A DNA stretch of 64,000 nt from the NCBI GenBank assembly GCA_000153145.1, contig CH672415.1:2588319-2652318 (forward strand). Direction: 5' to 3'. A program made the position numbers and the translations under genes. Under the pieces are notes generated by a model that saw only the letters and a program-made list of their open reading frames with translations, did not search any database and had not been told where the DNA came from. The first letter of the stretch is position 1; each line of letters begins with the position of its first letter. Below, piece after piece: positions 36,770 through 41,275 of this stretch. Source of the DNA: a marine actinobacterium PHSC20C1 (GTDB taxonomy: Bacteria > Actinomycetota > Actinomycetes > Actinomycetales > Microbacteriaceae).

Positions 36770-38086
36770 GTGCCAAAAATCTTGATCGTCGGCGGCGGTT
36801 ACGCCGGTTTCTACACTGCTCGCAAGCTTGAAAAGTGGCTGCGTCGGGGTGAAGCAGAGGTCACCATGGTTGACCCTCTTCCCTACATGACGTACCAGCC
36901 GTTCTTGCCTGAGGTTGCTGCGGGCTCGATCGAGCCACGCCACGCGGTTGTTCCCCACCGTCGCCACTTGAAGACCACCAAGGTCATCACAGCGAAGGTC
37001 ACAGGAATCAACCACGCAGCGAAAACTGCAACAATCCAGCCCGAGGTTGGTGATTCATGGGAGATCGATTACGACCTCGTTGTGGTCACTGCCGGTGCTG
37101 TGTCGCGCACCTTCCCGATTCCGGGAGTTGCCGATGAAGCGATCGGCATGAAGACGATCGAAGAAGCCATCGAGGTTCGCGATCGCCTGCTCACCAACTT
37201 TGACAAGGCAGCAAACCTGCCGGCCGGTCCCGAGCGCGATCGTCTGCTGACGTTCGTAGTCGTCGGTGGCGGTTTCGCGGGTATCGAAGCGTTCGGTGAG
37301 ATGCGCAGCTTTGCATCATCGTTGTTGCCGCTCTACCCGAACCTCAAGTTCGAAGACACGCACTTCCACCTCATCGAGGCTATGGGTCGCATCATGCCCG
37401 AGGTTTCGCTCGAGACGAGCAAGTGGGTTATCAAGAACTTGGCTGAACGTGGTGCCCAGATTCACCTCGACACCCAGCTGAAATCAGCTGTGGATGGCGT
37501 CGTTGAGCTGTCGACCGGCGAAAGCTTCCAGTCAGACACCATTGTGTGGACTGCAGGAGTTATGGCGAACCCCGTCGTACGCAGCACCGACCTCCCCGTT
37601 GAAGAGCGTGGACGGATCCGTGTGCAGGCTGACCTACGGGTCATCAACGACGACGGTGTTGTCGAAGGTGCTTGGGGTGCGGGCGACGTCTGCGCCGTTC
37701 CTGACCTCACCGGTGGTGGCGTTGGCGGTTTCTGTGTTCCGAACGCCCAGCACGCTGTTCGCCAAGCAAAGCTCATGGCGAAGAACATTGTTGCGTCGCT
37801 TCGTGGCGAAGGCACCCAGGACTACTTCCACAAGAACCAGGGTGCGGTCGCCGGTCTCGGTCTGTACCACGGTGTCTTCCAGTCCGGCAAGGTCGCGATC
37901 AAGGGCTTCCCGGCCTGGATCATGCACCGCGGCTACCACGGCATGGCAATGCCGATGTTCGAGCGCAAGGCTCGCATCTTCGGTAACTGGATCATCAACT
38001 TCTTCTGGGGACGCGACACGATCTCGATCGACGCGCGCGTAGAACCGCGCCGCGCATTCGAAGAGTTCGCCTCACGCCCCAAGTAG
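36770..38086 (+). CDS. ndh: Type II NADH dehydrogenase-like flavoprotein
   Basis: A 438-residue FAD and NAD(P)H binding protein that probably passes electrons from NADH to the quinone pool without pumping protons. Motifs: ILIVGGGYAGFYTARKLE (FAD site), the YDLVVVTAGAVSRTFPIPGV segment, TFVVVGGGFAGIEAFGEM (NADH site) and EGAWGAGDVCAVPDL. The C-terminal amphipathic part (AWIMHRGYHGMAMPMFERKARIFGNWIINFF) fits membrane attachment. GTG start with AGGAGA upstream. Confidence 0.92.
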   Translation: MPKILIVGGGYAGFYTARKLEKWLRRGEAEVTMVDPLPYMTYQPFLPEVAAGSIEPRHAVVPHRRHLKTTKVITAKVTGINHAAKTATIQPEVGDSWEIDYDLVVVTAGAVSRTFPIPGVADEAIGMKTIEEAIEVRDRLLTNFDKAANLPAGPERDRLLTFVVVGGGFAGIEAFGEMRSFASSLLPLYPNLKFEDTHFHLIEAMGRIMPEVSLETSKWVIKNLAERGAQIHLDTQLKSAVDGVVELSTGESFQSDTIVWTAGVMANPVVRSTDLPVEERGRIRVQADLRVINDDGVVEGAWGAGDVCAVPDLTGGGVGGFCVPNAQHAVRQAKLMAKNIVASLRGEGTQDYFHKNQGAVAGLGLYHGVFQSGKVAIKGFPAWIMHRGYHGMAMPMFERKARIFGNWIINFFWGRDTISIDARVEPRRAFEEFASRPK

Positions 38087-38119: not shown

Positions 38120-38193
38120 GCCCCGGTAGCCCAATTGGCAGAGGCAGATGACTTAAAATCATCCAAGTCAGGGTTCGAGTCCCTGTCGGGGCA
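38120..38193 (+). tRNA. tRNA-Leu (anticodon UAA), short variable arm
   Basis: A 74-base cloverleaf folds cleanly: acceptor GCCCCGG with TCGGGGC (one G-U pair), D-arm GCC/GGC with GG in the loop, anticodon stem GATGA/TCATC around CTTAAAA (anticodon TAA), 5-base variable region CAAGT, T-arm CAGGG-TTCGAGT-CCCTG, discriminator A, and no encoded CCA. The anticodon reads UUA (Leu), but a normal leucine tRNA has a long variable arm, so identity is slightly open. Its 3' end is repeated at 40707-40735. Confidence 0.9.
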
Positions 38194-38199
38194 CAGTTA
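38171..38199 (+). repeat. Left attachment repeat (attL, in tRNA 3' end)
   Basis: Begins at GGGTTCGAG in the tRNA T-arm and ends at CACAGTTA six bases past the tRNA. It matches 40707-40735 with one difference (G at 38188, A at 40724). Confidence 0.75.
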
Positions 38200-38212
38200 A
38201 GAGAATTGGTTG

Positions 38213-38229
38213 CCTAAGCTCGGCTTAGG
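38213..38229. terminator. Hairpin after the tRNA gene
   Basis: CCTAAGC (38213-38219), loop TCG, GCTTAGG (38223-38229) form a perfect 7-bp stem 20 bases after the tRNA. It also covers the stop codon of the small minus-strand ORF, so it could serve both directions. Confidence 0.4.
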
Positions 38230-38332
38230 GGCGGATCGCCTCAATAAAGGTGGAAGCTTCTAGGAGCGCTTTCGCGAAGACCTCACGCTGTGTATGGATG
38301 TCGAGAGCACGTGTGTAGGCAGCGAAGTGCAT
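38225..38332 (-). CDS. Possible small protein in the island, 35 residues
   Basis: A short reading frame beginning MHFAAYTRALDIHTQ and ending FIEAIRP, with AGGAAA seven bases before its ATG and codon choice similar to real genes of this genome. I do not recognise it. It may be a genuine small island protein, a remnant of a larger gene, or chance; no neighbouring frame extends it. Confidence 0.3.
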   Translation of the reverse strand: MHFAAYTRALDIHTQREVFAKALLEASTFIEAIRP

Positions 38333-38439
38333 TCTCGATTTCCTGTGCAACTGATCCTAAGAATCGACGATCTGGACCTCGTCGACAGGGCGGGCCGCAT
38401 CGCGCGCTGAGCCTTGCTCTGAAACAAGCACTCCTCAAA

Positions 38440-38469
38440 TACACTCTACGCAGGCACTAGATCGAGTGC
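38440..38469 (+). promoter_or_regulatory. OLD gene promoter and palindrome
   Basis: TACACT (38440-38445) is a good -10 box; no convincing -35. The near-palindrome GCACTAGATCGAGTGC (38454-38469, 14 of 16 symmetric) lies about where transcription would begin, 25 bases before the start codon, and could be an operator. Confidence 0.4.
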
Positions 38470-38494
38470 GCACGGAATGAGGAGAGATCAACGC

Positions 38495-40402
38495 ATGCTG
38501 CTAGATAGGATCCAGATTTTCGGGTATCGGCGCATGGTCGATGCCTCAGCGTACGTCGGGCGGAAGACAGTTGCGCTGGTCGGCCCCAACGAAGCTGGCA
38601 AGAGTTCAGTTTTATCTGCTCTCAGGCTATTTGGGGATGACAGCCCGGTACCTCCGCTCTCGTTCTCCCGCGCCACCCGCGGGCAAGCTCGCGACGCAAC
38701 TGATGACGTCGTAATTTTGTCGCTAGCGCTGACTGCGGAACAGCTGTCCATACTCAAGGGCATGCCGTTGAGCGTCCTCCCAACGCACTACACCTTGCAC
38801 AAGCAGATCGACGGCACGCGGAGATACTCGTTTCTTCCCTTTCCGGAGGTGGATCCAGCGATCAGGAAGAAGGCCGCGGACGGCTGGCCCAAGCTCGCCG
38901 CGGTGCTTGAGGTGGGGATCGATTCTGGCGCCGATGATGCGGATGCGCAGACCGCGGACTTGGACTCAGTCGGGCGTCATTTCTTGCCGGGAGTTTATGA
39001 AGAAGAGGTCTTCAAGCGTGTTCACGGCCGTATCGTCGGAATGCCGTTCGATAAGCAAGCCAAGAAGGTGCAGAGTGCAATCGCGGCGTTTGAAGAGTAT
39101 TTTCGCATCGGTCGCCCCGATCTGAACTTGCGATCTCTAATACGAGCCGAGTTGAAAATCACGGATCCAGTATTCGCTATGTTCGGGGATCGCGAGCGCG
39201 ACATTGAAGCGGAATATGAGATCGCTGGGGCTGATACTGAATCGAGCGTTGCGTTGGCCAATCTTTTGGCCCTCGCAGGTTTGAGCCTGACTAGCATTCG
39301 CCAGAATTTGCCCGACGCAGGGTATCTCGAGCAACTTGTCAACGACGCCAACGACCGTTTGAGTGAGTATTTTGCGTCGAAGTGGAGTCAAGAGAGCGTT
39401 GCAGTCGGCCTAAAAGTTGACGGTGACGTGCTGCGGGTATTTGTGAAAGACGTGCGCCCAGGCTCGGTGGGGTGGATCAACATAACCGAGCGGAGCGACG
39501 GGCTACGGATGTTCGTCGCTCTAGCAACTTTCCTAGCGCGTCAGGAGTTCGCGACTCCGCCGATTCTTCTGATTGATGAAGCGGAGCAGCACCTCCACCT
39601 GAACGCTCAGGGAGATTTGGTCAGAATGCTCCAAGAATTAGAGCAAATTCAACAGGTGCTCTACACAACACACTCGCCGGGCTGCCTACCCGCGGATTTG
39701 GGTAACGGGGTGCGGTTTGTAGAACCTCTCGATGGAGGCAGATCGCGTATCCGCCATGACTTCTGGTCGCTGCGCGGTGATGACCACGTTGGTTTTAATC
39801 CGTTGTTGATGCTCATGGGTGCGGGAGCCGCCGCATTCTCCGGGTTGCGGAACGCTCTCGTAGTGGAGGGTGCGTCGGACATGCTTCTTTTGCCCACTTT
39901 CATCAAGATTGCGACCGGTCAGCGCGAGTTGTCGTACCAGGTTGCGCCTGGCATCTCGGTTGCTAGCAAGGGTGATCTCGCACGGATGGATCTTGTCGCT
40001 AGCCGCGTCGCGTACTTGGTCGATGGCGACCCAGCAGGGAACGTGTGGAGAGGCCAATTGGAGCTTGCGGGCGTGGCTGCTGCGAGAATTCGTCAGCTTG
40101 CTGCGGGGAGCGCCATCGAAGACCTGCTGGATTTGCAGTTCTATGTCGATACAGTGAACGACTTCTTGACTACTCAGATCGTATCCGCCGAGGAATTGGA
40201 TGGAGTAGGGGCTGTCAAGGGGCAATTAGATCGATGGTCTGCTGCCCGAAACGTCACCTTGCCGGGGCCGATAGTAGTTGCGGAGCAGATGCTCGGCAAT
40301 CATGAAACTGGCCGACGACGAATAACCCTGAACCCGTCGAAAAAGCAGTCGTTGAAAGCTCTTCACGCTTGGGCGGTAGATACCTTCGCGGCGGCAAGAT
40401 AG
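38495..40402 (+). CDS. OLD-family ATP-dependent endonuclease (ATPase-TOPRIM)
   Basis: A 635-residue protein resembling stand-alone (class 1) OLD nucleases. ABC-type ATPase: Walker A GPNEAGKS at 30-37, signature SDGLRMFVALA near 333, Walker B ILLIDEAEQHLH near 360 and TTHS near 391. C-terminal TOPRIM nuclease: VVEGASD near 455 (Glu), VDGDPAGN near 510 (the Asp-x-Asp pair) and AIEDLLD near 541. ATG 38495 is chosen as AGGAGA lies nine bases before; an ATG at 38477 is also in frame. No GajB-like helicase or other partner is nearby. OLD proteins act in phage defence. Confidence 0.85.
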   Translation: MLLDRIQIFGYRRMVDASAYVGRKTVALVGPNEAGKSSVLSALRLFGDDSPVPPLSFSRATRGQARDATDDVVILSLALTAEQLSILKGMPLSVLPTHYTLHKQIDGTRRYSFLPFPEVDPAIRKKAADGWPKLAAVLEVGIDSGADDADAQTADLDSVGRHFLPGVYEEEVFKRVHGRIVGMPFDKQAKKVQSAIAAFEEYFRIGRPDLNLRSLIRAELKITDPVFAMFGDRERDIEAEYEIAGADTESSVALANLLALAGLSLTSIRQNLPDAGYLEQLVNDANDRLSEYFASKWSQESVAVGLKVDGDVLRVFVKDVRPGSVGWINITERSDGLRMFVALATFLARQEFATPPILLIDEAEQHLHLNAQGDLVRMLQELEQIQQVLYTTHSPGCLPADLGNGVRFVEPLDGGRSRIRHDFWSLRGDDHVGFNPLLMLMGAGAAAFSGLRNALVVEGASDMLLLPTFIKIATGQRELSYQVAPGISVASKGDLARMDLVASRVAYLVDGDPAGNVWRGQLELAGVAAARIRQLAAGSAIEDLLDLQFYVDTVNDFLTTQIVSAEELDGVGAVKGQLDRWSAARNVTLPGPIVVAEQMLGNHETGRRRITLNPSKKQSLKALHAWAVDTFAAAR

Positions 40403-40706
40403 TCTACGAAACGTAGGACGAGCGTCGATATCGTTCGCGCACTCGGGTGAATTTGAGTCGAGCTCGCTGGGTCCGAACGCCGGATAGGATTTAATGTGGC
40501 CTGCGCTAAAGACATCCTTGTCGCGTGCATGCACCCGCTGCGCCCCTCGTCTTCGGCTAAGTGGCGTTCAGAGTTAGACGTAGCTTGCGAAACGAAAGCC
40601 AGTGGACGCTCGAACAGCTGGGGTTCGTGAGCAGGCGACACCGCTGGCGGCAAGTGAGTTCTCCTGCGTCTTGTGGCTTGAACGCGCCCTACCTGCTCGT
40701 GCACGC
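40403..40706. other. Gene-free right end of the island
   Basis: About 300 bases after the OLD gene hold no frame I can support on either strand: the minus-strand open frame here only continues antisense to arsC codons and has no start signal. No clear terminator with a T run was found. GCCCT at 40686-40690 could pair with AGGGC in the right attachment repeat. Confidence 0.4.
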
Positions 40707-40735
40707 GGGTTCGAGTCCCTGTCAGGGCACAGTTA
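40707..40735 (+). repeat. Right attachment repeat (attR)
   Basis: Copy of the tRNA-Leu 3' end (28 of 29 bases). The last three bases, TTA, are also the TAA stop codon of arsC on the minus strand, so the insertion ended exactly at that gene without damaging it. Confidence 0.75.
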
Positions 40736-41140
40736 CGCGGGAAGGATCTCCGCCAGCAGCTTCTGGATGCGCGCCTTGATGTCGTCGCGGATCGGGCGCA
40801 TTTCATCGAGGCCCTTGCCCTTCGGGTCGACGAGCTCCCAGTCTTCGTAGCGCTTGCCGGGGAAAATCGGGCAGACGTCGCCGCAGCCCATGGTGATGAC
40901 GACATCCGAGGCTTGCACTTGGTCGGTCGTCATGAGCTGCGGCACGGCCTGCGAGATGTCGATGCCCTCTTCAGCCATGGCCAGAATTGCGGTGGGGTTG
41001 ATCTCGTTGCCGGGCTCAGAACCGCCCGAGCGCACCTCTACCGCGCCATTCGACAGGGCGGTCATGTAGCCGGCTGCCATCTGGGAGCGTCCGGCGTTGT
41101 GGATGCAGACGAAAAGGACAACAGGCTTCTGAGTGGTCAT
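40733..41140 (-). CDS. arsC: Arsenate reductase, low-molecular-weight phosphatase type
   Basis: Reduces arsenate to arsenite in the cytosol. The 135-residue protein has the phosphatase loop CIHNAGRS (Cys12), and Cys86 and Cys90 in TMGCGDVCP, suiting a disulfide relay with thioredoxin or a low-molecular thiol. DPKGKGLDEMRPIRDDI follows as usual. Its TAA stop lies in the attR repeat. A TATTCT box six bases before the ATG (41147-41152) suggests a leaderless mRNA. It diverges from an aquaporin gene, a known arsenic-detoxification pairing. Confidence 0.92.
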   Translation of the reverse strand: MTTQKPVVLFVCIHNAGRSQMAAGYMTALSNGAVEVRSGGSEPGNEINPTAILAMAEEGIDISQAVPQLMTTDQVQASDVVITMGCGDVCPIFPGKRYEDWELVDPKGKGLDEMRPIRDDIKARIQKLLAEILPA

Positions 41141-41263
41141 GTTTCCAGAATACGTGAGCTGTATGACGCGGCAGGCGTTGCCTGTGCAGAGTTCATGAAG
41201 CGTTCACCATCGTGTCAGCAGTGCGCGAGGAAGTGTGTTCACTCTCAGTTGTAGGCGACTAGG

Positions 41264-41269
41264 TATGAT
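41264..41269 (+). promoter_or_regulatory. -10 box for leaderless aquaporin transcript
   Basis: TATGAT, nearly consensus, ends six bases before the ATG at 41276; no ribosome-binding site is visible. Confidence 0.45.
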
Positions 41270-41275
41270 CGCCGA

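Follow-up and report, generated by a model that had tools for sequence, protein, structure and literature searches.

The window, a 64,000-nt stretch of a genome of 2,772,187 bases (2.77 Mb; G000) whose positions serve as coordinates throughout (position 1 being its first letter), contains a single tRNA gene, tRNA-Leu(TAA), which ARAGORN places at 38120-38194 on the plus strand and which also matches RF00005 (locus L013). To its left lies an NADH dehydrogenase-like gene (NDH; Pfam Pyr_redox_2; 36770-38086, plus strand), a conserved neighbour that tblastn detected in all eight relatives' loci tested, and to its right an arsC-type reductase gene (LMWPc in Pfam and NCBIfam; 40733-41140, minus strand). 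A repeat search confirmed the initial annotation in finding a 29-base direct repeat with one mismatch (28/29 identical, spacing 2536), of which the attL-like copy is the 3' end of tRNA-Leu (38171-38199, plus strand) and the attR-like copy lies at 40707-40735 (plus strand). This geometry is read directly from the DNA: the repeat starts in the T-arm, spans the tRNA 3' end and extends 5-6 bases past it. About 2e-9 such pairs would be expected by chance (equal base frequencies, 3.3 kb searched), and the 26-base core of the repeat has two sites only in the 2.77-Mb genome, even with up to 3 mismatches allowed. The left copy is the end of the working tRNA, and its tRNA part reads as in relatives; the mismatched base sits in the right copy, now outside any tRNA, and all ten relatives of the clade described below read like the left copy at that base. 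Because arsC lies on the minus strand, its stop codon coincides with the final TTA of the right copy (40733-40735), exactly where the repeat had been said to end, and these three bases may match by chance.

The interval between the two copies, 38200-40706 (~2.5 kb), is here called the island and holds one sizeable gene. Its left (38200-38494) and right (40403-40706) margins are without a recognised gene in ORF, Pfam and margin searches, the Pfam run covering 5 of 13 stop-to-stop fragments (>=35 aa) with zero matches at E<=0.01. No recognisable recombinase or integrase was found in the island by a PF00589 search of the genome, in the ORF list or by Pfam on the five margin fragments, and the margin searches and the same Pfam run revealed no remnant of other element genes that would mark descent from an ICE or IME. 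The early description of one large, OLD-like gene between the repeats, with no integrase in sight, agrees with the ORFs, Pfam, PADLOC and the PF00589 search alike. Across 398 family genomes, the island ends have no relative beyond the tRNA core and short matches judged to be due to chance. Those of the left margin, at ~38365-38407 in 13 other genomes, were dismissed as chance in GC-rich DNA since, apart from a few within one gene, they hit several genes of unrelated kinds, in differing frames and strands; a fourteenth non-self match (L120) sits elsewhere in this margin. The idea that the right end contains the core in inverted form, like the hairpin mini-elements described below, was also rejected, such a copy being not significant (p 0.16, 500 shuffles; DNA fold z 0.65). 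A scan for promoters and terminators returned no terminator-like site and, against 0.9 expected, one promoter-like site, which falls within the tRNA. Composition was discarded as a sign of foreign origin: the GC3 of the OLD gene (0.632, the 8th lowest of 47 long ORFs in the window) is low but not extreme.

The gene occupies 38495-40402 on the plus strand and encodes an OLD-type ABC ATPase/Toprim-like protein of 635 aa; the open reading frame runs from 38477 to 40402, and we chose 38495, which is preceded by GAGGAGAG, as the likeliest start. The protein has four Pfam matches, including AAA_15 and AAA_21, and the PADLOC models AriA, GajA and Old are among the matches listed (25 of 117), all covering parts of the protein. 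It reaches no NCBIfam cut-off, and PF20469 is absent among its Pfam matches at E<=0.001; one homolog (in G017, see below) has a weak match to that family (E 0.019). In an alignment with five homologs of 32-36% identity, the motifs GPNEAGK, ERS.G, DE.E, TTHS, E458-G459 and D510-G511-D512 are invariant in all six sequences. We take GPNEAGK, DE.E and the other motifs of this kind to represent an intact ABC ATPase, including its Walker A (K36) and Walker B motifs, and E458-G459 and D510-G511-D512 are presumably the acidic residues of the Toprim part. A profile of the six sequences matched PtuA, the T. scotoductus OLD protein (6p74), AriA and GajA in the PDB, while the best match of the single sequence was 6p74 (E 6e-5, over short stretches); a single-sequence fold prediction (pLDDT 35) was discarded as unusable. 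The product most likely cuts or senses the DNA of phages or rival elements, and homology and context together suggest that the gene probably has a role in defence.

The same gap was then compared among 27 genomes of the genus, including that of the window, all of which possess the tRNA-Leu gene. In a tree of the NDH-like gene, the window genome belongs to a clade of 11 genomes (support 100/100), within which it nests with G005 and G012 (99/92). Both of these have an empty site, as do six further members of the clade (G001, G006, G011, G020, G025 and G026), so that in eight of ten clade relatives the tRNA is separated from the arsC stop codon by a mere 48-76-base spacer, none of the eight spacers containing a second tRNA end. 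It had been anticipated that an empty site would consist of the tRNA directly facing arsC, but all eight empty relatives retain this spacer. One inverted repeat, resembling a two-way terminator, is common to six of the spacers. The only compact tRNA-arsC arrangement in relatives is a decayed second fragment in G016; when the compact junction was sought as a strict pattern in a one-genome-per-species collection, nothing matched, and the repeat core had no match in viral contigs, both being exact patterns over collections that may lack records close to the window genome.

The remaining two clade relatives hold unrelated cargo in the gap. That of G010 is 1.1 kb long and comprises an XRE regulator and two small ORFs, and that of G016 (~4.6 kb) encodes a DUF4062 protein, an mREase_IV-like protein (117 bits) and a DUF4041/T5orf172 protein that scores 317 bits against PD-Lambda-1. 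In G016, these genes are followed by the decayed fragment, one more ORF and then arsC in intact form; the fragment (L076:6740-7040) is a second copy of the NDH 3' end, tRNA-Leu and the arsC 3' end, in which the tRNA stands 3 bases from the arsC stop codon, as at the right repeat of the window. Neither cargo has a clean tRNA-end repeat, which indicates that other routes of entry into this gap exist. Three different cargos are therefore found at one gap within a clade of 11 genomes, and at least one besides the OLD gene, that of G016, appears to be defence-like. Of the 16 genus genomes outside the clade, G004 carries ars genes ~0.3 kb behind tRNA-Leu in a different order, and the other 15 have no arsC match near tRNA-Leu, although contig ends could hide some. 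In G019, an 11.8-kb stretch at the same tRNA-Leu ends in a copy of the tRNA end (4/23 bases off); its genome has six PF00589 matches at E<=1e-5, none on the contig of this stretch.

Among the 27 genomes, the OLD insertion at the tRNA-Leu 3' end occurs in the window genome only. The comparison with relatives that the initial annotation had called for thus found no relative carrying the OLD gene at this place and no second repeat in an empty spacer, and the proposed insertion was upheld. The insertion is specific to the window lineage, and one gain in that lineage is the simplest explanation. It can safely be called lineage-specific but not recent, because the nearest clade relative is 89% identical to the window genome in the NDH-like gene.

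Homologs of the OLD protein are sporadic. With the window genome counted each time, they were found in three of the 27 genus genomes (G000, G017 and G024; E<=1e-20, 60 genomes searched), in 5 of 398 genomes of the family sample (E<=1e-20) and in 7 of 396 of the order sample (profile, E<=1e-40). No relative was confirmed among 68 pattern hits in the one-genome-per-species collection, where a degenerate-pattern scan finds close relatives only, or among four pattern hits in IMG/VR; a plasmid search with the protein returned 31 records, none with 80% cover, and a phage search returned one. Twelve OLD loci were read, the window included, two of which (G099 and G674) begin near a contig end, leaving one side unseen. 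A tRNA is nearby in three of the twelve (G000, G166 and, at 9.4 kb, G017) and in none of the six from the order sample, whose stretches measure 12-19.5 kb; in stretches of this length, a few OLD loci near a tRNA are expected by chance. These counts weakened the notion of a general tie between this OLD subfamily and tRNAs, which was not retained. In G330, the homolog adjoins an AAA_13 protein and is preceded by genes that, in our reading, look like a type I restriction operon.

Two of the homologs stand in modules comparable to the island. In G017, an integrase-bearing module (PF00589, E 3e-18) stands behind tRNA-Arg(CCT), and next comes a second module, of 7.3 kb, in which no integrase was recognised and which carries the OLD homolog and an adjoining SF1 helicase. 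The latter module is bounded by imperfect 150-base repeats that are 78-85% identical; the far repeat contains the 3' end of the tRNA-Arg (1 mismatch in 25 bases) and the near repeat a much decayed form of it. In G166, which belongs to another genus, an integrase-less 5.2-kb insertion composed of a KAP NTPase, a 258-aa ORF and the OLD homolog lies exactly behind tRNA-Ala(CGC) and retains a mere trace of a right repeat, while in G220, of the same genus as G166, this tRNA runs straight into the downstream flank, representing the empty site. A perfect 51-base copy of the 3' part of tRNA-Ala(CGC) was also observed in G268 (C319:216587-234937; L160, L164 and L170), 18.3 kb behind that tRNA, which is the same target as that of the KAP/OLD insertion in G166.

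The survey of tRNA loci brought to light two further sequence families. A short non-coding hairpin family lies behind tRNA genes of the genus (L134-L137, L139, L141 and L143-L145 near position 1500; G017 L093:12330-12535), found in 14 of 27 genomes, with a maximum of 10 matches in one of them, and without a match in the window genome. A tRNA gene (Leu, Arg, Ser, Lys, Ala or Tyr) is nearby in 10 of 12 loci fetched; in six of these ten, a copy of the 3' end of that very tRNA (22 bases, 0-3 mismatches) follows 131-184 bases behind it, and the other four have a poorer or absent copy (5, 6, 7 and 9 mismatches). In the three loci scanned, Rfam recognised nothing but the tRNAs. The family appears to be a miniature element, hitherto undescribed, that copies the end of its adjoining tRNA. 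Separately, an inverted motif consisting of AACTTC, ~14 bases and GGCGGAAGTTGGG, with small changes, occurs behind tRNA-Leu in G004 (L077) and G019 (L086) and behind tRNA-Arg in G017 (L131), and is perhaps an integrase arm site common to elements at different tRNAs.

Our best reading of the window locus is a non-autonomous remnant or a cis-mobilizable tRNA island. With some confidence, we propose that 38200-40706 is a small non-autonomous island that site-specific recombination would have brought into the 3' end of tRNA-Leu(UAA), with one solo OLD gene as its cargo, and an integrase is the rather probable agent of this entry, as we infer. In such an event, the left repeat (attL) would restore the tRNA, the right repeat (attR) would be the displaced old 3' end, and the protein brought in would be a solo OLD-type ABC ATPase joined to a Toprim-like nuclease. 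That no recombinase is recognisable could have come about either because the integrase-bearing part was lost or because the integrase is supplied from elsewhere, as for cis-mobilizable elements. The integrase-less modules with OLD homologs at two other tRNAs (the tRNA-Arg array of G017 and the tRNA-Ala of G166) provide a supporting parallel. The entry is also favoured by the course of the repeat from the T-arm to the tRNA end, its absence elsewhere in the genome, the position of the changed base in the right copy, the empty sites and other cargos of the clade relatives and the PD-Lambda-1-like gene of G016. Against it stand the island ends without relatives, the unremarkable GC3, the G010 and G016 cargos that have no clean repeat and the small share of homologs near a tRNA. 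In the window genome, no integrase that targets tRNA-Leu was found: its four PF00589 matches all lie away from the island, and the two that we take, by their scores, to be non-Xer-like have no tRNA in their surrounding 19-kb stretches. The island may still be mobile at present, and its product may act as a nuclease and in defence. A broader and rather unlikely extension is that integrase-free islands of one to a few genes circulate via tRNA 3' ends among these bacteria, moved wholly in trans, with the OLD subfamily as a recurring cargo; the window island would then be a minimal example of this class, and its sites would include tRNA-Leu, the tRNA-Arg array of G017 and tRNA-Ala in another genus.

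The right side of the locus does not conform to this scheme in every respect. The second tRNA end reaches to 3 bases from the arsC stop codon, and the spacer of the relatives is missing, which simple integration does not explain. In addition, all eight relatives' loci tested (G004, G005, G010, G011, G012, G016, G025 and G026) have, between arsC and an aquaporin gene, another arsC-like gene whose front part is ArsR-like in our reading; it is missing from the window (41141-41275), and G000 has one arsC match only. The loss of both the spacer and this gene suggests that the recipient was already compact, that the right side was trimmed later or that homologous recombination took place. The last of these could account for the whole locus if the gap were a hotspot at which accessory genes are swapped by recombination between its conserved flanks, namely NDH-tRNA to the left and arsC to the right, and the tRNA repeat were a fossil of an older event in a donor. 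The decayed NDH'-tRNA'-arsC' segment within the G016 cargo, the G010 cargo without a tRNA-end repeat and the altered right side of the window itself all fit such swapping, whereas the window repeat is clean, confined to the tRNA 3' end and unaccompanied by any extra NDH or arsC fragment, so that we regard this account as possible but doubtful. That the island was ancestral to the clade and lost in the relatives is very improbable: the site is indeed variable, with its three cargos in 11 genomes, but several independent losses on the NDH tree would be needed, each restoring the spacer, and six of the eight spacers share the same inverted-repeat sequence.

The role of the cargo can be questioned independently of its route. 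The OLD-type gene might be a housekeeping, repair or element-maintenance ATPase that rides on the island, as the partial PADLOC matches and the failure to reach any NCBIfam cut-off would allow, and an archaeal OLD-family ATPase is reported, in the available text, to act in the cell cycle (PMC12796447). We consider a non-defence role unlikely in view of the sporadic distribution in the family and order samples and of the company that the homologs keep, namely the SF1 helicase in G017, the KAP NTPase in G166 and, in G330, the AAA_13 protein and the genes resembling a type I restriction operon.

Returning to the proposed integration, the island may be compared with several known systems, each considered here as far as it is described in the accessible parts of the sources cited. 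The term cis-mobilizable element, or CIME, denotes an element that has both attL and attR yet no genes for integration or transfer (PMC5704250), and 15 islands without integration modules are described at ssrA in Dehalococcoides, for which accretion has been put forward (PMC3146451). As in both, the present island has attL/attR-type repeats of the 3' end of an RNA gene, here a putative pair, and lacks integration and transfer genes. It differs from them in consisting of one gene within 2.5 kb and in having no integrase-bearing element in tandem at this site, and its mobilisation would be putative; a tandem of the CIME shape, with an integrase module and an integrase-less module, does stand in G017 with the OLD homolog. 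An autonomous tRNA-integrating island or prophage has an integrase gene inside, which was not found here.

With respect to its cargo, the island recalls class 1 OLD proteins, which are solo genes and among which P2 Old is described as the only one established as phage-protective (PMC10568477). Like P2 Old and the T. scotoductus OLD protein, the window gene is a single gene without a partner, and its product has an ABC ATPase front part with Walker A and B (by its motifs, AAA_15 and AAA_21) and, in our reading of the motifs, putative Toprim-type acidic residues; unlike them, it has 635 aa and is distant from 6p74, and some homologs of its subfamily have partners. It belongs to the same protein superfamily as GajA, which acts with GajB in Gabija, but no GajB-type helicase adjoins it, its neighbours being tRNA-Leu/NDH and arsC, in contrast to the G017 homolog with its SF1 helicase. 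As only P2 Old is established in this class, a minimal island whose single gene is of the OLD type represents a useful test object.

The locus also resembles the 18 defence hotspots described in tRNA loci of E. coli (PMC10121019), in that differing defence-type cargo is found at one tRNA locus in related genomes; in E. coli, however, the carriers are prophages, P4-like satellites and mobilizable elements, whereas here they are inserts of ~1.1-5.5 kb in which no integrase was recognised. Among titles and opening lines of abstracts on such islands, drawn mostly from papers outside subscription, nothing was seen on this locus. Its component parts are already known, and what it adds is the one-gene size and a hotspot placed on a tree. 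Taken together, one clade with eight empty sites and three cargos offers a clean, tree-placed case in which probable anti-phage genes would enter one gap in the form of very small units that bring no recombinase of their own, and it makes the movement of integrase-less islands directly testable.
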